DNA from: a virus
Strand: one strand, 5' to 3'
DNA: 26,294 bases
Virus record (IMG/VR): IMGVR_UViG_3300032304_000555
Coordinates: 1-26,294 of that record
Below the pieces are notes generated by a model. That model was given only the letters and a program-made list of their open reading frames with translations, was not told where the DNA came from and searched no databases. Positions 5,196 through 25,118 of this stretch are shown in pieces; position 1 is the stretch's first letter; every line of letters begins with the position of its first letter. Position numbers and translations under genes: made by a program.

Positions 5196-5270
5196 GCACC
5201 TGTAGTTCAGGGGAAGAACGGCTGACTCTTAATCAGCGCGTCACAGGTTCGATTCCTGTCAGGTGTACCA
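5196..5270 (+). tRNA. tRNA-Lys (anticodon CTT)
   Basis: The cloverleaf folds completely. The acceptor is GCACCTG with CAGGTGT (one G-U pair), and the D arm is GTTC/GAAC. The anticodon arm is GCTGA/TCAGC around the loop CTCTTAA, giving anticodon CTT (5228-5230). The T arm is ACAGG/CCTGT with loop TTCGATT, followed by a discriminator A and encoded CCA. It reads AAG, the lysine codon preferred by most genes here. It lies directly upstream of the homing endonuclease gene. Confidence 0.95.
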
Positions 5271-11319: not shown

Positions 11320-13281
11320 ATGAGTTTTGATAAGAGTTTCGACAACATTAGTAAAGATTTACTAGAAAAGATTAAGGATATTACATCTGAGAAGAAGTCA
11401 TTGTACGAGAAGACCGTAGAAGTGACTGAAGTAGATACTTCATATCTGGATAGAAATTCAGTAGAATCTACTGGACAACTAGATGAGCTATCTGATGATA
11501 CTCTAAGGAACTATCGTAAGGCTGCTCAAGCCGTAGTCGATACCAAGAAGAAGGGTCGTCCATCTGCTGCTGATGTAGCAACCAAGGCGAAGAGAACTGC
11601 TGGTATTAGTCGTGCTAATGAAATTATGGGTGATAGATCAAATAAAAGACAACAGAAGTATCAAGATGATACTAATGAGGTAAAAAATCATATGTACTTC
11701 ATGGCACCAAATATTCTTATGGCACATGGGTATAATTCTGCAGGTAATACACCAAATTCACAAATGTTTTTTAAAGTCCATCCCGAACACGGTCTAGTGA
11801 CACATTTCAAGTTACATAATCCTAAAGCTGATAACTACTACATGGGGGAGTTTGGCTCTTCTGTTAAGGGATGGAGTACTGGAGATTCTCATAAGCATGA
11901 AGAGGGGGATACTTACTTCATTAAGAAGAAGGATGTTTCTGAGCGTAAAAAAGATGCTGAACTTCTACTTCGTAAGAAGATTAATGATTATGAAGCAGAA
12001 CAGAAGAATAGAGCACTCAACGAATCATTCGACCCAGAAGAAGTAGAAGCTGTCCTAAATGAGGCTCAGGGCTCGTCTAACCGTCTTGAAAAGATGGGTA
12101 AGAAGAATTCAGATTTTGACTATAAGAAGTTCGACAACAAGAGATATGACAAGAAGTCCTTTGATCGTTCCAAGAGACAAATGAAGGACGATGACTTCAG
12201 AGAAGAACTAGAACTTGAGGAATCTTCAGATAAGCTCGGTGACCACACCCTAGTCGCCACTAGAGGTAGTGAGGATGGTAATCGATACGAACTTCATCAT
12301 AAAGATAAAAACTCTGCCGTTCTCATCAGAACACATAAAGATGGTAGACCGTTTAAAAGTTCATATGAGAAACATGATGTCATGTGGAGAGGGCATCCAT
12401 TGGGTGGTAAAAAAGAAATTAACCACTGGATGTACAATACCGATGACAAACTAGCCAAATTCGTCAATAAAGGCGATCTAAAAGAAGCTCAATGTTCAGC
12501 TAATCGTGTCGAGAAGATGGGTAAGAAGAGTTCTGATTCAGAATATAAGAAGTTCGACAACAAGAGATATGATAAGAAGTCATTTGATCGTTCCAAGAGA
12601 ACAATGAAAGATGATGACTTCAGAGAGGAAATTGAGTTAGACGAAATTTCATTAAATGCACATGTCAAATATTTAAAGGCTGCAGACAAAGATACTTCTG
12701 GTAAGGATCGTTCTAAATTTGTCAACAAAAGTGTCAATAAATTAAATGCTTATAGAGACAAGCAACTAGAAGATTCCAAAAAGAGAGACCTTGAGCCCAT
12801 AAAACATGAATTAAAAGTTCATGATCTTTCTAGAATGGATCATGGTCGTGCTTACGATGAAACCCAAACTAATGATGATATCGAAGATGGTCATGTCCTT
12901 AAGGTAAAGGGCGGAACTGCCATTCTTATGAGAGCTTGGCCCACTATGGTATCTGGTAAATCAAAGCATCTACATTCTCTAGCAGATGGACATTCTTGGG
13001 AAACTATAGATGGCGGTAAATATAAAAAGTCATATGAACTTGCCAAGAGAACAATGAAAGATGATGACTTCAGAGAGGAAGTCGAAGAACTAGACGAAGT
13101 TTCCAAGAATACTCTTGCATCTTATATCAGTAAGGCTGCAAGGAAGATTTCAACTACTTCACATAGTATCGGCAAAAGCGGTTACAGTAATGATCGAGCT
13201 AAAGACGTCAATAAAAGAATTTCTGGTATTGATCTAGCAGGAAGAAAAATGTCTAGTAAGCCGACGAGAATGGATGACTAA
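11320..13281 (+). CDS. Repeat-containing late protein (653 aa), possible head/internal protein
   Basis: Three copies of a module, LDELSDDTLRNYRKAAQ (residue 54 on), LDEISLNAHVKYLKAADKD (440 on) and LDEVSKNTLASYISKAARK (591 on), match modules in the preceding protein. A second, highly charged repeat of 54 residues occurs twice in full and once as its last 25 residues, each ending FREE and L-x-E just before a module or an inserted domain. Globular inserts lie between (about 130-230, 300-388, 510-570). L-x-E before each module resembles the T4 gp21 prohead-protease recognition (L/I-x-E), so a processed head polyprotein is conceivable. The Shine-Dalgarno AGGAG is well placed. No enzymatic motif is visible. 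Confidence 0.75.
   Translation: MSFDKSFDNISKDLLEKIKDITSEKKSLYEKTVEVTEVDTSYLDRNSVESTGQLDELSDDTLRNYRKAAQAVVDTKKKGRPSAADVATKAKRTAGISRANEIMGDRSNKRQQKYQDDTNEVKNHMYFMAPNILMAHGYNSAGNTPNSQMFFKVHPEHGLVTHFKLHNPKADNYYMGEFGSSVKGWSTGDSHKHEEGDTYFIKKKDVSERKKDAELLLRKKINDYEAEQKNRALNESFDPEEVEAVLNEAQGSSNRLEKMGKKNSDFDYKKFDNKRYDKKSFDRSKRQMKDDDFREELELEESSDKLGDHTLVATRGSEDGNRYELHHKDKNSAVLIRTHKDGRPFKSSYEKHDVMWRGHPLGGKKEINHWMYNTDDKLAKFVNKGDLKEAQCSANRVEKMGKKSSDSEYKKFDNKRYDKKSFDRSKRTMKDDDFREEIELDEISLNAHVKYLKAADKDTSGKDRSKFVNKSVNKLNAYRDKQLEDSKKRDLEPIKHELKVHDLSRMDHGRAYDETQTNDDIEDGHVLKVKGGTAILMRAWPTMVSGKSKHLHSLADGHSWETIDGGKYKKSYELAKRTMKDDDFREEVEELDEVSKNTLASYISKAARKISTTSHSIGKSGYSNDRAKDVNKRISGIDLAGRKMSSKPTRMDD
12061..12222 (+). 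repeat. 54-residue charged repeat, copy 1
   Basis: In-frame unit encoding the series NRLEKMGKK, YKKFDNKRYDKKSFDRSKR and MKDDDFREEL. It shares an exact 29-base stretch (12121-12149 with 12544-12572) with copy 2. Most differences between the copies are conservative or silent. Confidence 0.9.
12484..12645 (+). repeat. 54-residue charged repeat, copy 2
   Basis: Aligns end to end with copy 1 without gaps. Its last part (12593-12630) is identical over 38 bases to copy 3 (13043-13080), pointing to recent duplication or gene conversion. Confidence 0.9.
13024..13098 (+). repeat. Charged repeat, copy 3 (last 25 residues only)
   Basis: Encodes KKSYELAKRTMKDDDFREE and then EELDE. Only the second half of the unit is kept, and it leads directly into the third LDE-(V)S module. 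Confidence 0.85.
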
Positions 13282-16163: not shown

Positions 16164-16389
16164 GATCGAGAGAATTAAAGCTGTTATGGAAGTAGGATTG
16201 TGTCTCATTAGAAAATGGTGGAGACCATTGACCTGTGTTGGTATTGCTGCTACTATGTGGGTACAAGGAGTTATTATTCCTCTAGCAACAAAAACTGTAC
16301 CCGATCTAACGGGACTAGCTGCCCTAGTAACCGCCATCGCTGCAGCATTTGCAGTTCGTGAGTGGGGTAAGACGAAGGGTAATGACTAA
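16162..16389 (+). CDS. Holin-like membrane protein (75 aa)
   Basis: Two hydrophobic helices (about residues 22-42, LTCVGIAATMWVQGVIIPLA, and 49-66, LTGLAALVTAIAAAFAVR) follow an amphipathic, basic N-terminus. The R-P-L at the first helix and the R-E-W-G-K-T-K-G ending after the last resemble the holin family first described in gene transfer agents (holin-3TM type), common next to phage lysis genes. It follows the spanins directly and overlaps the PAS protein start by one base. It would form the inner-membrane hole that starts lysis. No endolysin is seen in this window. Confidence 0.7.
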   Translation: MIERIKAVMEVGLCLIRKWWRPLTCVGIAATMWVQGVIIPLATKTVPDLTGLAALVTAIAAAFAVREWGKTKGND

Positions 16390-17141
16390 TGACTCAAGAA
16401 ATTGTAGAACTATATAACGGATATATCGGACTGATTGCTGCAGCATTAGGTGTTCTTACTACATTATTCAGTAAGAAGGTTAGATCAATTGTGGCTGCAC
16501 CATTCATCTATATTCATAGAACATTCAGCAATAAAGCTATGGAGACTAAGCTTGACTTTATAGTACATGAGCTTAGAGATAACTGTGGATCAAGCCTTAA
16601 GGATGCCATTAAGAAAATTACAGTTCAACTCGATGTGTTCTCATCTACATTTGAAGAACGATCTAATCAGTTAAATAGCTTATTTACTCACGTTGAAGGT
16701 CTCAAATCAGAAATTTCTGAGATGAAGTCTTCTATCAATGATAAGCAAGCCAATCTGGTAGCAAAGTTTACTGCTATGCTAGACCAACCGAATAGTCCGC
16801 CAATCTTTGAATCAGATAAAGATGGCAAGTGCATTTGGGTATCGTCATCATATGTATCTATGGTGTCAAGACCAGCCAATGAATTGCTTGGTTGGGGATG
16901 GCTCAATTCGATTCATGAAGATGACCTAGAGCACGTCAAAGAACGTTGGCACGAATGTGTTAATGAAAAGAGAATCTTCGACCTTAAATATAGATTCGTT
17001 GATGTAGAGAATCGAATAATTCATGTTAGGTGCAGGGCGACTCCAGTCATGAATGCTTTTGATATTACTGGATGGATGGGAGTAATCACAATTTTACCCA
17101 AGAGGAAAGCTGCAAGTAATAGCGAACTTTTATTCACATAA
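16389..17141 (+). CDS. Membrane-anchored coiled-coil PAS-domain protein
   Basis: Residues 12-28 (YIGLIAAALGVLTTLFS) form a membrane helix. Residues 53-132 are a long heptad-like region (LKDAIKKITVQLDVF; HVEGLKSEISEMKSS). Residues 137-236 read as a PAS_3-type sensor: FESDKDGKCIWVSSSYVSMV, the N-ELLGWGWLNSIHEDDLE helix with H-x-D-D, YRFVD and GWMGVITIL. No histidine kinase, cyclase or DNA-binding output is attached, so it probably signals by oligomerisation or partner binding. It starts at the holin stop and ends the lysis cassette. Known PAS ligands include haem, flavins and metabolites; no ligand can be predicted. A role in timing lysis is inference from position. Confidence 0.78.
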   Translation: MTQEIVELYNGYIGLIAAALGVLTTLFSKKVRSIVAAPFIYIHRTFSNKAMETKLDFIVHELRDNCGSSLKDAIKKITVQLDVFSSTFEERSNQLNSLFTHVEGLKSEISEMKSSINDKQANLVAKFTAMLDQPNSPPIFESDKDGKCIWVSSSYVSMVSRPANELLGWGWLNSIHEDDLEHVKERWHECVNEKRIFDLKYRFVDVENRIIHVRCRATPVMNAFDITGWMGVITILPKRKAASNSELLFT

Positions 17142-18746: not shown

Positions 18747-19745
18747 ATGCTAATTGAATACAAAGCAATCTTACACCCAAGAACAAAGTTAGAATTATCA
18801 TCTTTCAATAGATCATTGCAGGGTCGAGTTACAGTTTCTGGAGCTACCAATAGCAATCGTAGATGGGAACTAGATAATGATTCTGAGACACTCAACATCG
18901 AAGGTCAACGAATCTGTTTACAACTGATATGCGCCGGATTAGCTACATTTCCCATCGCAACTGATCTAATTTCACAGGGATGTAAAGCTATCGAGTGGTC
19001 ACTATCACCACAGATTATGGGTGATGGAAATTGGCCACAACTTAGAGCCGGTGATCTGGGTAATAATACCCATCCAAGAGTAGTGTTTCTAAATGCTGCA
19101 TGCAAGTCGATCCATCTACTAGAATCAAGTCTCTATCCACTAGATAGAGTTTGGTTAACCAATATTAAAGCTCAACTTATCAAAGCTGCACTGTGGAATC
19201 TGAATTCTGAAGATTTCAAGGAATTTCTTGAAATGAAGAATACTATGAACCAACGATTTACTGCTGGTGCAGTAATGAGAATTACTGGACTCTGGAGTAA
19301 GAATCCTGATCTACTAAAGATGGCAGATTACATTTACTTGGATGCTACCAAACGAATGACTCCAGATGGAGTTCTACCTGAAGCATATGGATATGATTGG
19401 TCATATCAATCAGTAAGTCTAGGGTCTATAGCACTATATATCGGGACATATACTGATGCTGGATTGAAACCACCTGCTGCAGTACTAAGTATGCTTAAGT
19501 TAGCTTCTAATAAGTGGTGCTCCAGCATTGATGACAAAGGGATTGTTACAGTAGCAGGTTCTAGAACACAGGTAAGTTCTTATAGAAATTCGGTTGGTCC
19601 ACATGGATTTGATGTTGATCAATATGCTCAACGAGCAAGGTATGTTGCATTAGCACCACTACCAAAGAAGACTAGAGAATTATTGCTTGAAAAGTCTAAA
19701 CTATTAGAATTTTCGGGTCCGGATTATGAACACATCGAGGGATAA
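18747..19745 (+). CDS. 332-aa protein of unknown role, possible alpha/alpha-toroid enzyme
   Basis: AGGA seven bases ahead of the ATG. Many helices are separated by short loops, with W-x-L-N and a segment KRMTPDGVLPEAYGYDWSYQ followed by SVSLGSIALYIG. In my memory DG-x-x-x-E-x-x-G-x-D-x-x-Y-Q resembles the active-site loop region of (alpha/alpha)-toroidal polysaccharide lyases and glycosidases. There is no signal peptide and no virion motif. Lying between primase and ThyX is unusual for a glycan enzyme. An intracellular glycan enzyme, a misplaced depolymerase gene or a non-enzymatic toroid are all possible. The function is not established. Confidence 0.6.
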   Translation: MLIEYKAILHPRTKLELSSFNRSLQGRVTVSGATNSNRRWELDNDSETLNIEGQRICLQLICAGLATFPIATDLISQGCKAIEWSLSPQIMGDGNWPQLRAGDLGNNTHPRVVFLNAACKSIHLLESSLYPLDRVWLTNIKAQLIKAALWNLNSEDFKEFLEMKNTMNQRFTAGAVMRITGLWSKNPDLLKMADYIYLDATKRMTPDGVLPEAYGYDWSYQSVSLGSIALYIGTYTDAGLKPPAAVLSMLKLASNKWCSSIDDKGIVTVAGSRTQVSSYRNSVGPHGFDVDQYAQRARYVALAPLPKKTRELLLEKSKLLEFSGPDYEHIEG

Positions 19746-19747
19746 TA

Positions 19748-20539
19748 ATGAAAGTAAATTTAGTAGGATTAACTACACCATCTGCATATACTGGTTGCCA
19801 TACTGCAGAAGAACTGATAGTATGGGCAGCTAGAGTTTCGAATCCTAGTAACCAAGCAAACAAAACTACGTCTGCTAGGTTACTAAGATATCTCATCACG
19901 AATGCTCACTGGTCTCCTCTGGAACTAGTGAGCATGACTGTAGAGATTGTTACTACAAGAGATATTGCTCGACAGATTCTTAGACATAGGTCATTTACCT
20001 TCCAAGAGTATAGTCAGCGGTATGCAAATCCTCTAGAAGACCTTCAGTTCGAATTTAGAGAAGCTCGACTTCAGGACCCTAAGAACCGACAGAATTCTAT
20101 TGCAGTTGATGACAAACGCCTTCAAGAGACGTGGAATTCTATGCAGTATACTAATCAATGTAGTGCCAAGATTGCTTACAATTGGGCCATAGAAAATGGT
20201 ATAGCTAAAGAACAAGCTAGATCAGTACTCCCTGAAGGTAATATTCAATCAGTATTGCAAGTGCAGGGAACCATTCGAAGTTGGATTCATTACTGTATGT
20301 TGAGGATGAAGAATGGAACTCAAAAAGAGCATGCTGAAGTTGCTGCAATGGTTCTTGATATCATGTCTGTCCACTTCCCTACTATAGTAGAAACAATAAA
20401 GCAGATGGAAGAGATTGCTTATCTGAAGGATAAGGCTCTAGAAATTCTTGTTAACAAGTATAATAACGATGAAACAATCTCTCCAGAAGACGAAGAGCTA
20501 CTACTCAAGTTTATAAATACATACTCCACCAAGAAGTAA
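19748..20539 (+). CDS. thyX: Flavin-dependent thymidylate synthase ThyX
   Basis: Converts dUMP to dTMP with methylene-tetrahydrofolate, FAD and NADPH. The ThyX signature RHR-x7-S-x-R-Y is present as R79-H80-R81-SFTFQEY-S89-Q-R91-Y92. The dUMP-binding E-Q-A-R158-S-V-L-P and the SPLE (56-59) region are also seen. At 263 aa the length is normal. It supplies dTMP for replication with NrdAB nearby and would use dUMP made by the deaminase upstream. GAGGG precedes the ATG. The gene end carries a TATAAATA octamer. Confidence 0.95.
   Translation: MKVNLVGLTTPSAYTGCHTAEELIVWAARVSNPSNQANKTTSARLLRYLITNAHWSPLELVSMTVEIVTTRDIARQILRHRSFTFQEYSQRYANPLEDLQFEFREARLQDPKNRQNSIAVDDKRLQETWNSMQYTNQCSAKIAYNWAIENGIAKEQARSVLPEGNIQSVLQVQGTIRSWIHYCMLRMKNGTQKEHAEVAAMVLDIMSVHFPTIVETIKQMEEIAYLKDKALEILVNKYNNDETISPEDEELLLKFINTYSTKK
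20512..20519 (+). promoter_or_regulatory. TATAAATA octamer before nrdA, possible late promoter
   Basis: Exact late consensus inside the last codons of thyX, 33 bases ahead of the nrdA ATG. It may allow NrdAB synthesis late in infection. The same octamer occurs in the middle of other genes, so this one may be chance. Confidence 0.35.
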
Positions 20540-20552
20540 GAAAAGGCAGTCG

Positions 20553-22817
20553 ATGATTAATGTAATTAAGCGCTCCGGAGCAAAAGAACCACTCGATATT
20601 GACAAGATTCATAGATGTGTGGAATGGGCATGCGAAGGATTAACTGGAGTTTCGGTTAGCGAACTAGAACTAAATGCCCAAATTCAATTTTACAACAATA
20701 TCAAGACTAACGATATTCAAGAAACTCTAATTAAAGCTGCATCAGAGCTTATCACTGAAGACAACCCAAACTACCAATTCGTTGCAGGTAGACTTATCAA
20801 CTACCACCTACGTAAGATGGTATACAATCAATTTGAACCTCTAGATTTATTGACACACGTAAAAAATGTAACTGACCTTGGTTACTACGATAAGAATATT
20901 CTTGAGATGTATTCCGAAGAAGAATTTGCTCTATTGAACGACTATATCGATCATGATAGAGACAATCTTATTGCTTATGCCGGAATGGAACAGCTAAGAG
21001 GCAAATATCTAGTAAAGAATAGACTTACTGGGATTACCTACGAAACGCCTCAAATGGCGTTTATGCTTATCAGCATGACACTTTTTATCAACTACAAGAC
21101 TGACCGACTGAAGTGGGTCAAGGAGCTTTACGATGCCCTATCTACGTTTGATGTTAGTCTTCCTACACCAATTATGGCTGGAGTTCGGACGCCCGAACGT
21201 CAATTTTCTTCTTGCACACTTATCGAGACGGATGACACGCTTGACAGCATCATTGCGACGACTGGGGCGGTGGTTAAATATGTGTCTCAGAAGGCTGGTA
21301 TTGGGATTGGGGCTGGCCGTATTAGGAATTCTGGTTCTATTGTTCGGGGTGGCCGCGTTGTTCATACTGGCAATACTGGGTATTATAAGCTATTTCAGTC
21401 AGCGGTTGGATCATGCTCTCAAGGTGGGGTAAGACCCGGAGCAGCTACTGTTTATTATCCTCTCTGGCATGGTGAGATTGAGAATCTTCTAGTTCTAAAG
21501 AATAACAAGGGTATCGAAACTAATCGTGTACGCCACATGGATTATGGTGTACAATTCAGCAAATTGATGTATGATAGACTGATTAGTGGTGGAAATATCA
21601 CACTATTCAATCCTCATGAAGTTCAGGATTTGTACGAAGCCTTTTACGCTGACGAGAGTCGATTTAAGGTTCTGTATGAACAATACGAGAAGTCTAACAA
21701 GGTATGGAAGAAGACTATCCCTGCAGTAGAGCTATTCAATAGCTTCATTCAGGAACGTAAGGATACTGGTCGAGTCTATTATATGAACGTTGACCATTGC
21801 AATTCTCATGGTTCATTTATTCCAGAGCTTGCGCCTATCCGAATGTCTAATCTTTGCACTGAAGTGACACTTCCGACAGTGCCATTAAGGTCACTAGATG
21901 ATCCGGATGGTGAAATTGCACTTTGCATTCTTGCTGCTCAGAATATGGGTAAGATTAAGAAGCCAGAAGACTTTGAACGTGGAGCTATTCTATTAGTACG
22001 AGCACTAGATGCACTTATCGACTATCAGGAGTATCCAGTACTAGCAGCCAAGAATGCGACACTAAAGCGTAGACCACTGGGTATCGGAATTATTAATCTA
22101 GCCTACTGGTTAGCTAAGAACAACCAGACCTACGATAATTGTGATCTAGATATGTTCGATGAATATATGGAAGCATGGTCATACTATCTAATCAAGGCGT
22201 CTGCTGATCTTGCTGTTGAATTTGGTCCATGTCCCTCTTGGAAAGATACTAAGTATAGTCAAGGAATTCTACCAATCAATACCTATAAGAAGGCGGTTGA
22301 TGAACTGACATCAAGAGCACCAAAGTATGATTGGGAAGCGCTAGCTAGACAAATTCAGAAGACTGGTATCAGAAACTCTACTCTAATGGCACAGATGCCA
22401 GCAGAGACCTCTGCTCAAGTAAGTAATGGTACTAATGGTATCAATGCACCTAGAGCACTAGTGTCTATTAAGAAGTCTAGGGATGGAGTTCTTAAGCAAG
22501 TTGTACCGGGTATTGCTAAACTGAAAAATAAGTATGAACTACTTTGGGATCAAAAATCGAACAAAGGTCACTTCAACATTGCTGCAATTATGACTAAGTG
22601 GATGGATCAAGCAATCTCTATTGATGCATCGTATAACCCAAAACACTTTGCTGACAATAAGATTCCTACGTCAGTTCTACTTGGTGATCTACTCTATGCA
22701 TATAAATATGGACACAAGACTGGTTACTACTTGAATACTAATGACCAGTCCGGTGAGGAAGAAGAGCAGTTAGATGATACTGTAATTGAAGAAGATTGTG
22801 ATGGATGTAAGCTATAA
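20553..22817 (+). CDS. nrdA: Ribonucleoside-diphosphate reductase class I, large subunit
   Basis: Reduces ribonucleoside diphosphates to deoxy forms with the NrdB radical. An ATP-cone lies at residues 1-90 (VIKRSGAKEPLDIDKI). The catalytic residues are C221 (SSC), N433-L-C435-T-E437 and C458 (ALCILAAQN). The radical-transfer Tyr pair is in KTGYYLNTND. The C-terminal redox pair is C749-x2-C752, right at the end, where the helper glutaredoxin would act. Length 754 aa is typical. No intron or intein is present. Codon use around 21180-21400 differs from the rest. AAGG precedes the ATG, and the stop overlaps nrdB. Confidence 0.96.
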   Translation: MINVIKRSGAKEPLDIDKIHRCVEWACEGLTGVSVSELELNAQIQFYNNIKTNDIQETLIKAASELITEDNPNYQFVAGRLINYHLRKMVYNQFEPLDLLTHVKNVTDLGYYDKNILEMYSEEEFALLNDYIDHDRDNLIAYAGMEQLRGKYLVKNRLTGITYETPQMAFMLISMTLFINYKTDRLKWVKELYDALSTFDVSLPTPIMAGVRTPERQFSSCTLIETDDTLDSIIATTGAVVKYVSQKAGIGIGAGRIRNSGSIVRGGRVVHTGNTGYYKLFQSAVGSCSQGGVRPGAATVYYPLWHGEIENLLVLKNNKGIETNRVRHMDYGVQFSKLMYDRLISGGNITLFNPHEVQDLYEAFYADESRFKVLYEQYEKSNKVWKKTIPAVELFNSFIQERKDTGRVYYMNVDHCNSHGSFIPELAPIRMSNLCTEVTLPTVPLRSLDDPDGEIALCILAAQNMGKIKKPEDFERGAILLVRALDALIDYQEYPVLAAKNATLKRRPLGIGIINLAYWLAKNNQTYDNCDLDMFDEYMEAWSYYLIKASADLAVEFGPCPSWKDTKYSQGILPINTYKKAVDELTSRAPKYDWEALARQIQKTGIRNSTLMAQMPAETSAQVSNGTNGINAPRALVSIKKSRDGVLKQVVPGIAKLKNKYELLWDQKSNKGHFNIAAIMTKWMDQAISIDASYNPKHFADNKIPTSVLLGDLLYAYKYGHKTGYYLNTNDQSGEEEEQLDDTVIEEDCDGCKL
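21180..21400 (+). other. GC-richer patch with foreign codon use inside nrdA
   Basis: Within the active-site region (about residues 210-283) codons such as CGG, CGC, CGT, ACG, GCG and GGG cluster, while the rest of nrdA prefers AGA, ACT, GCA and GGT. The protein stays fully conserved. This looks like a recombination or gene-conversion tract. Confidence 0.6.
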
Positions 22818-23917
22818 TGTCAGTATTTAATTTTAATAATACTAAACCACACACAGAAAGAACTATGTTCTTTGATGAGTCGGTTGACGTAGCAAGATAT
22901 GATAAGGTGAAGTATCCAAATATTGATAAGTTGACTGACAAGCAACTTGGATACTTTTGGAGACCAGAGGAAGTTGCTCTCCCTAGAGATGGTAAAGACT
23001 TCAGAGATATGTCGTCTAGTTATCAATTCATCTTCAGTGAAAATATTAAACGTCAAATTCTACTAGACTCGGCTCAAGGAAGAGCACCATCGCTAGCATT
23101 TTTACCAATCTGTTCTTTACCAGAACTAGAAGTGTGGATTCAGACATGGTCATTCTTTGAGACTATTCATAGCAAATCGTACACTCATATCATCAAGAAT
23201 GTGTACAACGATCCGAGTAAAGTGCTTGACACCATCAAGAGTTCACCAGAAATTGTTGACTGTGCCAAGGATATCTCTAGATATTACGATGATCTAATTC
23301 GATTCAATGATCAACGAGGTAATTTTACCGGGGGTGTAGCTGACTTCAATCTATATGAGCATAAGAAGGCTCTTTGGTTAGCTATGCATTCCGTTAATGC
23401 TCTTGAGGGTATTAGATTCTATGCTTCATTTGCTTGTTCATGGAACTTTGCTGAACTGAAGTTGATGGAAGGTAATGCCAAGATTATTGGCTTTATCGCC
23501 AGAGATGAAAATCTACACTTAGCTGTCACTCAACAAATTCTTAAACTTCTACCTAAAGAAGACTCAGACTTTGCTGCAATCAGAGAAGCGTGTAAACCAC
23601 GGGTTATGCAGATTTGGTTAGATGTCATCAACCAAGAGAAGACGTGGGCTCGATATATTATGCAACATGGTTCTATGATCGGACTTAACGAGAAGCTTCT
23701 TTGTGATTATCTAGATTGGATTGCATTTAGAAGAATGTCAGTTATTGGGTTGACACCATTCACAAAGTCTGGTACAAATCCTCTTCCGTGGACTACTAAA
23801 TGGATTGGTGGAGCAGATGTTCAACCAGCACCACAAGAAGTTGAAATCCAATCTTATGTAATTGGTGGTGTTACAAATGACGTAACTGATACTACCTTCT
23901 CTAACTTTGAATTATAA
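22817..23917 (+). CDS. nrdB: Ribonucleoside-diphosphate reductase class I, small subunit
   Basis: Carries the di-iron centre and tyrosyl radical. The ligands fall at almost the E. coli positions: D84, E115, H118 and radical Y122 (ETIHSKSY), E197, and E231 with H234 in RDENLHL. The C-terminus FSNFEL resembles the tail by which NrdB docks on NrdA. At 366 aa it is close to E. coli NrdB. The start overlaps the nrdA stop by one base, as expected for a coupled pair. Class Ia/Ib-type chemistry with a conserved Tyr is expected. Confidence 0.96.
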   Translation: MSVFNFNNTKPHTERTMFFDESVDVARYDKVKYPNIDKLTDKQLGYFWRPEEVALPRDGKDFRDMSSSYQFIFSENIKRQILLDSAQGRAPSLAFLPICSLPELEVWIQTWSFFETIHSKSYTHIIKNVYNDPSKVLDTIKSSPEIVDCAKDISRYYDDLIRFNDQRGNFTGGVADFNLYEHKKALWLAMHSVNALEGIRFYASFACSWNFAELKLMEGNAKIIGFIARDENLHLAVTQQILKLLPKEDSDFAAIREACKPRVMQIWLDVINQEKTWARYIMQHGSMIGLNEKLLCDYLDWIAFRRMSVIGLTPFTKSGTNPLPWTTKWIGGADVQPAPQEVEIQSYVIGGVTNDVTDTTFSNFEL

Positions 23918-23928
23918 GGACCACTGAT

Positions 23929-24324
23929 TTGTTGAAACATGAGCTTCTTGCTATCTCTGCAAGACTAAGAGACCCTATTAGAGATGTAGCGGTGATGAAA
24001 GAGTGGATGCTAGAACTCATTGATGCTATCGATATGGAACTATTGATGGGACCAGAGGCTATCTATTACTCTGGATTCGGTCTTTATAACGTTGGTATGA
24101 CTGCATTTGCTATCATTACTACTTCACATATTGGTTTACATACCTTCGAAAATTATGATTCAGAAGGAAAGTATGTTGACACCAAGCTAGAACTTGATAT
24201 ATATACATGTAAGAGCTTTGATCCAAAATCTGCATTCAAGATGATTGAGCAGTTTGGTCCGCTCGAAATCTCATACAAATTTATGGACCGCGAAAATGAT
24301 TTCGCTATTATTGAAAGGCCTTAA
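23929..24324 (+). CDS. SpeD-like pyruvoyl decarboxylase (AdoMet decarboxylase family), TTG start
   Basis: 131 aa matching the prokaryotic S-adenosylmethionine decarboxylase fold. S66-H67-I-G-L-H71 corresponds to the self-cleavage Ser (future pyruvoyl group) and catalytic His. DIYTC94 corresponds to the catalytic Cys, and DPKSAFKMI follows. The Glu that normally precedes the Ser is Thr65, so substrate or processing may differ; some SpeD homologues decarboxylate ornithine or arginine instead. TTG 23929 is the only sensible start: AAGGA lies nine bases upstream, a stop closes the frame just before, and no ATG precedes the conserved region. The product would feed polyamine synthesis, which could neutralise DNA in the head. 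Confidence 0.72.
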   Translation: MLKHELLAISARLRDPIRDVAVMKEWMLELIDAIDMELLMGPEAIYYSGFGLYNVGMTAFAIITTSHIGLHTFENYDSEGKYVDTKLELDIYTCKSFDPKSAFKMIEQFGPLEISYKFMDRENDFAIIERP

Positions 24325-24326
24325 CT

Positions 24327-24608
24327 ATGGGTAAGAAACGTCTACGTAAGAAGCTAGTATCTAAGGGCAATCGCTCACTAGTTTCTGGTGCTCTAGTAAC
24401 CGCTACTAATGCGGCTCGTGACATGCACGATAAGTTCCTGAACAAGCTTGATGCTTGGAAGAAGGGACAGAATCCTTGGATTACTATTGATAATCCTACC
24501 AAGGCAACTAATGCACTGAAGATTCGTGTCCGTGCAGAGGATTACTTTGGCCCATATAAACAAGTAATTAAAGAAAAGAAAGATAGAGAGGTAGATTACG
24601 CCCAATGA
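24327..24608 (+). CDS. Conserved small basic protein of T4-like phages (93 aa)
   Basis: Begins MGKKRLRKKLVSKGNR and contains LDAWKKGQNPWITIDNPTK then IRVRAEDYFGPYK. I recall this set from unnamed conserved proteins of environmental T4-like phages, often beside nucleotide-metabolism genes. It is strongly basic at the N-terminus, so nucleic-acid or ribosome contact is possible. Its stop overlaps the glutaredoxin ATG as ATGA. Function unknown. Confidence 0.7.
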   Translation: MGKKRLRKKLVSKGNRSLVSGALVTATNAARDMHDKFLNKLDAWKKGQNPWITIDNPTKATNALKIRVRAEDYFGPYKQVIKEKKDREVDYAQ

Positions 24609-24856
24609 GAATTCAACTATATACCAAAGACGGATGCACTTATTGTGACAAGGCTAAGGCCTTACTCACAATCAAGGGTTATAACTTCAGTGAAGTCAAC
24701 GTATCTAAGACTGATACTCTTCTTGAAGAGTTCAAAGCACAGTACCCTACAGTTCGAACCATGCCATTCATTCTAATCGATGGCACTCCGATTGGTGGTT
24801 ATGATAAATTAAATGAATGGGTGAATGAAAATGGAAAACAATTCCTCGCAGAATAG
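24605..24856 (+). CDS. Glutaredoxin
   Basis: A dithiol glutaredoxin of 83 aa with active site C11-T-Y-C14, the cis-Pro motif T52-M-P54 and GGYD near the glutathione site. It most likely reduces the C-terminal cysteine pair of the phage NrdA, the role of T4 NrdC. It is coupled by ATGA to the previous gene, and its 3' end overlaps the next gene by 32 bases. Confidence 0.93.
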   Translation: MRIQLYTKDGCTYCDKAKALLTIKGYNFSEVNVSKTDTLLEEFKAQYPTVRTMPFILIDGTPIGGYDKLNEWVNENGKQFLAE

Positions 24857-25118
24857 TGTTCTACGTGAACAACTTCTAGTCCTACTTAATAGGTGTGATC
24901 TAGAAGTTACCTTCACTAAGAAGGATGGTTCTGAACGAACCATGTTCTGCACATTAGATTGTGATGCAGTTCGGGATTATCACAATAATATGACCGAAGA
25001 AAATAGAGAGAAAGAGAAGAAGAAGAACCCAGAAATCATTAATGTCTGGGACCTCGAAGTGGATGCTTGGAGGGCTTTCAATATTAATTCTCTTATCAGT
25101 TATAAGGTATACGAATGA
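24825..25118 (+). CDS. Conserved phage protein, DUF2693/SH3-like beta-barrel (97 aa)
   Basis: The pattern VTFTKKDGSERTMFCTLD, then NVWDLEVDAWRAFNINSLIS, matches my memory of the DUF2693 family in T4-like phages, thought to be a small beta-barrel. Two ATGs (24825 and 24831) lie inside the glutaredoxin gene; the first is used here. A charged loop (EENREKEKKK) separates the two conserved blocks. The end overlaps the next start by four bases. Function unknown. Confidence 0.75.
   Translation: MKMENNSSQNSVLREQLLVLLNRCDLEVTFTKKDGSERTMFCTLDCDAVRDYHNNMTEENREKEKKKNPEIINVWDLEVDAWRAFNINSLISYKVYE

Follow-up and report, generated by a model that had tools for sequence, protein, structure and literature searches.

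We analysed a stretch of viral DNA of 26,294 bases, hereafter called the window. The record carries genes for a DnaB-like helicase and a primase, together with thyX, nrdA, nrdB and a glutaredoxin gene. We label the virus T4-like. Within its nucleotide cassette, which is ordered thyX-nrdA-nrdB-speD-x-grx, is a small gene of the SpeD family. The features are listed in Table 1.

Table 1. Features of the window around the SpeD-family gene
Feature	Position	Strand	Basis
thyX, flavin-dependent thymidylate synthase	19748..20539	+	Pfam, PHROG
nrdA, class Ia ribonucleotide reductase large subunit	20553..22817	+	Pfam, PHROG
nrdB, small subunit, ending 11 nt before the SpeD-family gene	22817..23917	+	Pfam, PHROG
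Shine-Dalgarno-like AAGGA, 8-nt spacer to TTG, overlaps nrdB stop	23916..23920	+	Sequence
SpeD-family gene, class 1b AdoMetDC fold, HTVC201P branch, 131 aa	23929..24324	+	Profiles, model, tree
Thr64, Thr65 and Ser66 codons, predicted self-cleavage site, Ser66 predicted to become pyruvoyl	24118..24126	+	Alignment to T. maritima S63; cleavage inferred
His71 codon, equivalent to T. maritima H68	24139..24141	+	Alignment
Diverged block F73-E88, replaces W-D-E-x-x-P and the branch Q, 16 residues against 10 in 42 relatives	24145..24192	+	Alignment
Cys94 codon, equivalent to T. maritima C83	24208..24210	+	Alignment
93-aa MGKKR... protein, PHROG 23239, similar one after speD in L016, L033, L049 and L200	24327..24608	+	
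Glutaredoxin	24605..24856	+	Pfam, PHROG
WYL_2 (SH3-like) protein, last cassette gene as drawn	24825..25118	+	Pfam

The SpeD protein matches the Pfam profile AdoMet_dc (PF02675; 2.6e-13, 50.7 bits, cut-off 25) and PHROG 3125 (2.3e-12). Its NCBIfam TIGR03330 score, 38 bits, falls under the cut-off of 75.65. Profile alignment to T. maritima S-adenosylmethionine decarboxylase (AdoMetDC; 1tlu) equates Ser66, His71 and Cys94 with S63, H68 and C83. Equivalents of these residues are essential for processing and catalysis in SpeD, according to the part of PMC10407285 available to us. An AlphaFold2 model, made from an alignment of 74 sequences, has a mean pLDDT of 93.5. The top four Foldseek PDB chains are SpeD, and VIA-align superposes the model on 1tlu with Z 13.9 and an rmsd of 2.3 over 110 residues. 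The T. maritima enzyme (1tlu, 1vr7) has the same fold but differs in its Glu62-Ser63 pair, its W-P-E and its use of AdoMet; the two proteins are 16% identical. Agreement between sequence profiles and modelled fold suggests that the SpeD assignment is more than chance. Profiles and alignment bear out the sequence-only reading of a SpeD-like enzyme that starts at a TTG, retains the three catalytic residues and has Thr at position 65, just ahead of Ser66.

The TTG at 23929 is the likely start, since pelagiphage homologues (MLEHKH/MLKHKH) begin at the residue aligned with M1, AAGGA lies upstream, and the window holds no in-frame ATG, GTG or TTG between the upstream stop and this codon. A second TTG, at 23932, is a possible alternative. 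It had been proposed that the TTG means low expression within the nrd unit. This is not supported: the gene has a ribosome site, and GTG or TTG is the closest start at 40 of 91 phage or viral speD loci (ATG 51, GTG 25, TTG 15), a redundant set with mechanically chosen starts that includes two out-of-branch records (L004, L012). A non-ATG start says little about expression in these loci.

We compared the cassette with 80 loci fetched by NrdB similarity, several of which share a contig with earlier loci and many of which are short. A SpeD match was found in 24. Nineteen are of the HTVC201P type and lie 0.5-1.2 kb after nrdB; the other five are SpeDC-like and lie 1.7-5.6 kb after it. The whole gene order of the window was not repeated in any locus read. 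Uncultured phages with a related nrd cassette (L016, L033, L049, L197 and others) have speD after nrdB and share part of the order. In L049, speD is followed by an MGKK protein and glutaredoxin; in L016 and L033 by an MGKKR protein and then a WYL_2-like gene (by eye); in L197 by glutaredoxin and a WYL_2-like gene. Their NrdB proteins are about 60-66% identical to that of the window and their SpeD proteins 31-40%. In the loci read, two or three small genes, absent from the window, separate nrdB from speD; by eye, these are zinc-ribbon and endonuclease-like. Across 20 SpeD-bearing records, NrdA was 62-67% identical to the window's in six, weakly similar in five and not found in nine. Eight of the nine pelagiphage records read have speD immediately ahead of nrdA or no more than about 1.1 kb from it; this proximity was not seen in the stretch of the ninth, HTVC104P. 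In HTVC201P, speD precedes nrdA, whereas in the window it follows nrdB.

Phylogenetic analysis placed the window protein in a branch with the HTVC201P protein, both in a 76-row tree (98/88, 45 rows) and in the first tree (96/82, 43 rows). L054, L135, L136 and L141 were excluded from the first tree and L128, L142, L170 and L174 from the second; loci from genome searches were admitted only if the frame held a recognisable motif. Besides pelagiphages and uncultured phages, the branch contains bacteria, among them Pelagibacteraceae, and one Thermoplasmatales archaeon. A separate branch (100/91) joins Sinorhizobium phage phiN3 with proteins of the VQLIETSN...HF...YLD type, which are ornithine decarboxylase (ODC)-like, and a third (100/96) holds canonical SpeD. 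The sequence-only reading had called for such a placement and had named grouping with non-enzymatic paralogues as counter-evidence. The window protein instead keeps its catalytic residues and shares its branch with a characterised enzyme, in the free tree apart from the canonical and ODC-like branches. Its end branch is the longest of the group, at about 1.0 change per column, and its best identity to any relative is 43-44% among the matches listed. Grouping it with the uncultured nrd-cassette phages (p 0.178), with pelagiphages (p 0.361) or with two TTSH bacteria (p 0.473) was not rejected.

Thr65 stands where T. maritima has Glu62. This is not an anomaly, since Thr precedes Ser in all 42 aligned relatives in the HTVC201P branch, be they viral, bacterial or archaeal. 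This count is an upper estimate because much of the sample was fetched by patterns, one of each set requiring Thr before Ser; one of the pattern-based locus sets comprises 80 kept from at least 595 relatives. The rows counted came from clustering at 80% identity, with all named pelagiphages retained, some of them nearly identical. Of the 14 phage records given by a pattern-free tblastn search, two belong to a single 735-kb phage and the rest to pelagiphages or an uncultured relative of these. Among the ten examined, which leave out HTVC103P, HTVC304P, HTVC021P and LR756503, Thr occurs in nine and Glu in one (LR756501). Nine pelagiphage-type proteins all read Glu- or Asp-Thr-Ser-His. Conversely, canonical rows have Glu before Ser (6/6) and W-P-E after His; S-PM2 is the one assayed.

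The six ODC-like rows comprise phiN3 and five viral proteins (L204, L244, L252, L255, L269). They belong, like the window protein, to the class 1b family, and four have Thr before Ser; phiN3 and L269 have Asp. They differ in branch and in a VQLIETSN...HF....YLDVFSC-like motif. NrdB at the five viral loci is 58-62% identical to that of the window and is encoded 1.7-5.6 kb away. Among the proteins compared, Thr before Ser goes with the HTVC201P and ODC-like types. An acidic residue at this place does not cleanly indicate that an enzyme uses AdoMet. Other arginine decarboxylases resemble AdoMetDC, according to the accessible parts of PMC10407285 and PMC9992855, and the available text of PMC3689656 gives no residue preference before pyruvoyl serines. 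Slow self-processing, also raised by the sequence-only reading, is without support because HTVC201P has the same Thr-Ser pair and is active. An apparent oddity of the active site becomes a trait of a whole phage and bacterial branch with one published arginine decarboxylase.

The window protein and that of Pelagibacter phage HTVC201P (AXH71538, pyruvoyl-dependent arginine decarboxylase) are 34% identical. Both have Thr-Ser-His-Ile, the catalytic His and Cys, N-x-G-x-T, L-D-x-Y-T-C and a C-terminal D-R-E. The window protein has Thr instead of Glu at -2 and F-E-N in place of W-D-E; it also lacks the Pro and carries six more residues. Most of these differences lie in one block. Where the branch has W-D-E-x-x-P (W, D and P in 39/39 rows, E in 38/39), the window has F-E-N-x-x-S; these counts exclude L196, L200 and L264, which also have the block. 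The stretch from 73 to 88 has 16 residues in the window and 10 in all 42 others. Defining a conserved column as one shared by at least 85% of other rows gave 34 columns. The window breaks ten, the most of 43 rows (next 9, 6 and 6; median 2). Five are in the block (Phe for Trp, Glu for Asp, Asn for Glu, Ser for Pro and Glu for Gln) and five at positions 5, 6, 10, 17 and 91. Catalytic positions are unaltered. At -2, Thr64 replaces a Glu found in 34/39 rows; Thr also occurs there in L098 and L121, and an acid is absent in two bacterial rows and one viral row. The window protein, which reads TTSHIGLHTFENYDS here, departs from the branch motif (E/D)TSHI..H.WDE..P, which was derived in this analysis and has no published definition. 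The model places the block directly past the catalytic His, where it spans the last part of strand 66-76, the turn and the first part of strand 82-93. The protein is a fairly ordinary branch member, and its true oddity is the rebuilt loop that follows the active site.

A frame error does not readily account for the loop. By eye, the other two frames of about 24139-24200 contain no W-D-E, and two cancelling frameshifts are unlikely. A single-protein scan found no close relative with the variant loop, and one motif scan of viral contigs had no match; near copies of the window record may be excluded from these and the following scans. A stretch in L302, found by motif scan, is not SpeD by family profile. 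L303 and L304, also from a motif scan, are real but distant SpeDs (ITTSHITIHTF and ISTSHISIHTF), and their grouping with the window was rejected (p-AU 0.007). Faster evolution as the sole explanation of the divergence is weakly countered by comparison at matched NrdB identity (60.7-66.7%). Here, mean SpeD identity is 37.1% over 28 pairs that include the window and 45.5% over 28 other pairs (range 36.9-66.9). The comparison kept 29 loci; its two ranges overlap, and many of the control pairs seem to come from a small number of shared loci.

We next consider substrate. In the available text of PMC9992855, the HTVC201P homologue decarboxylates arginine with a kcat/Km of 290 per M per s, has no detected activity on ornithine or lysine and does not restore spermidine. 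The same text makes it the one protein of this branch with measured kinetics; BAR31446, called closely homologous, gave indirect support. Later literature searches named no additional phage enzyme study like these among the papers listed. Phage homologues are divided there into AdoMetDC, arginine decarboxylase and ODC clades, the last including phiN3, itself a proven AdoMetDC. The accessible part of PMC10407285 describes a Pro after Trp that is fully conserved in bona fide AdoMetDC but not in arginine decarboxylases, which are otherwise little different. This Pro is Glu74 in the window. The feature is not absolute, as phiN3 has Asp at that place in the alignment. A substrate other than AdoMet, either ornithine or arginine, had been suggested from the Thr-Ser pair. 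The shift away from AdoMet towards one of these two is supported by placement with HTVC201P, itself Thr-Ser, and by the inclusion of a Thr among the residues that PMC10407285 gives as diagnostic of SpeD-derived ornithine decarboxylases (SpeDC). However, Thr-Ser may not exclude AdoMet use, since a spermidine-synthase-like gene adjoins the speD homologue in 7 of 49 bacterial loci, all Glu-Thr-Ser and all of one sub-branch. No homologue of agmatinase type (four queries) or SpeY type (three queries) was found in the 49 loci. Neighbouring genes hence give no support for arginine use. Among 12 genomes, which may be incomplete, PF00491 matched in six, PF01916 in three and PF01564 in seven (six over the cut-off).

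We give an even chance to the reading that this member of the HTVC201P branch, encoded in a phage nrd cassette, is a pyruvoyl enzyme that cleaves itself and most likely acts on arginine. Cleavage of the small proenzyme, of class 1b AdoMetDC fold, would fall between Thr65 and Ser66. The pyruvoyl group formed from Ser66 would then, with His71 and Cys94, decarboxylate an amino acid. The substrate would be L-arginine, rather than S-adenosylmethionine, and the product agmatine, a precursor of putrescine. Within the nrd cassette, the enzyme could raise polyamine supply during phage DNA replication. If the protein works as its branch suggests, a phage nucleotide cassette would contain a PLP-free route to a putrescine precursor. 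The substrate is uncertain because a single branch member has kinetics in the available text and speD of the Glu-Thr-Ser bacterial sub-branch adjoins a spermidine-synthase-like gene in 7 of 49 loci; it is less certain than for the relatives because of the rebuilt loop. The same loop would offer a clean test case for determinants of substrate choice in the SpeD fold.

Ornithine could be the substrate instead. The protein would then be a pyruvoyl-dependent L-ornithine decarboxylase, similar to SpeDC, and would make putrescine directly. In PMC9992855, as available, five homologues from freshwater phages decarboxylate ornithine when assayed, and one of these also acts on arginine. Thr, at what we map as the place before Ser, is among four residues diagnostic of SpeDC (Gln, Thr, Phe and Tyr) in the accessible part of PMC10407285. 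By our mapping, the window has Ala61, Thr65, Thr72 and Glu88 at these places and so matches one of four. The phage type that by this mapping matches all four in order (L204, L244, L252, L255) groups with phiN3, like the published ODC clade. In the free tree, the window is outside the ODC-like branch, but forcing it inside was not formally rejected (p-AU 0.0585). We regard the ornithine reading as doubtful. A true AdoMetDC is very unlikely, even though the Pfam name fits. In the Glu-Thr-Ser sub-branch of L122 and L130, speD does adjoin a spermidine-synthase-like gene, and the single PF02675 match in genome G006 (0.7 Mb and probably incomplete) stands next to its single PF01564 match. However, canonical rows have Glu and W-P-E, and the proven AdoMetDC of phiN3 has Asp, where the window has Thr and F-E-N. 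The sub-threshold TIGR03330 score and the failure of HTVC201P to rescue spermidine point the same way, and the subset of window ORFs scanned gave no spermidine synthase match.

The rebuilt loop invites two further explanations. The enzyme may through it have come to use a substrate that is none of AdoMet, arginine and ornithine, with the self-cleaving centre left intact. A single block immediately past the catalytic His accounts for the length change and for half of the ten departures, and the SpeD family has shifted substrate several times (PMC10407285, in its available part). This is quite unlikely; it depends on a single sequence, and the other five departures are elsewhere. Alternatively, the protein may be a decaying or non-catalytic copy, consistent with the longest end branch and the most broken columns of the group. 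Such a copy could be a regulator, resembling the trypanosomal prozyme. Conversely, 131 codons are open, the catalytic residues and C-terminal DRE are kept, the modelled fold is confident and the 26-kb record, a fragment, encodes no second SpeD to regulate. We consider decay rather improbable, and an arginine-acting enzyme of the HTVC201P branch is our preferred reading.

Several other SpeD types were seen. In L196 (3891-4286), L200 (3577-3960) and L264 (5400-5873), a sub-branch from phages with a related nrd cassette has NTSN for ETSH, so that the His after Ser is Asn. L264 also lacks an otherwise conserved Arg121. These proteins are possibly altered or inactive. SpeDC-like proteins are encoded 3.1-5.6 kb after nrdB in L204 (11193-11546), L244 (11371-11766), L252 (10228-10596) and L255 (10907-11365). 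Since these phages are related to the window, the two SpeD types may substitute for each other in one phage group. Glu-Thr-Ser SpeD genes are divergent beside a spermidine-synthase-like gene in L122, L129-L133 and L140, six of these seven being titled gammaproteobacterial; their Thr-Ser proteins may be true AdoMetDC. A further viral branch (L362, L365, L370, L372, L373) has (T/S)TSHIS.HTW motifs; some of these loci are on very large contigs, of as much as 497 kb.

Elsewhere in the window, a 332-aa ORF just before thyX (18747-19745) has no Pfam, PHROG or NCBIfam match. The gene of a 653-aa protein (11320-13281) that has no PHROG or Pfam match contains a direct repeat of 174 nt (82%) and a 64-nt repeat in three copies. 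A phage protein at 16389-17141, without a PHROG match, has a C-terminal PAS domain. Positions 5196-5270 encode tRNA-Lys (anticodon ctt), and the ORF that comes after it weakly matches an endonuclease PHROG.
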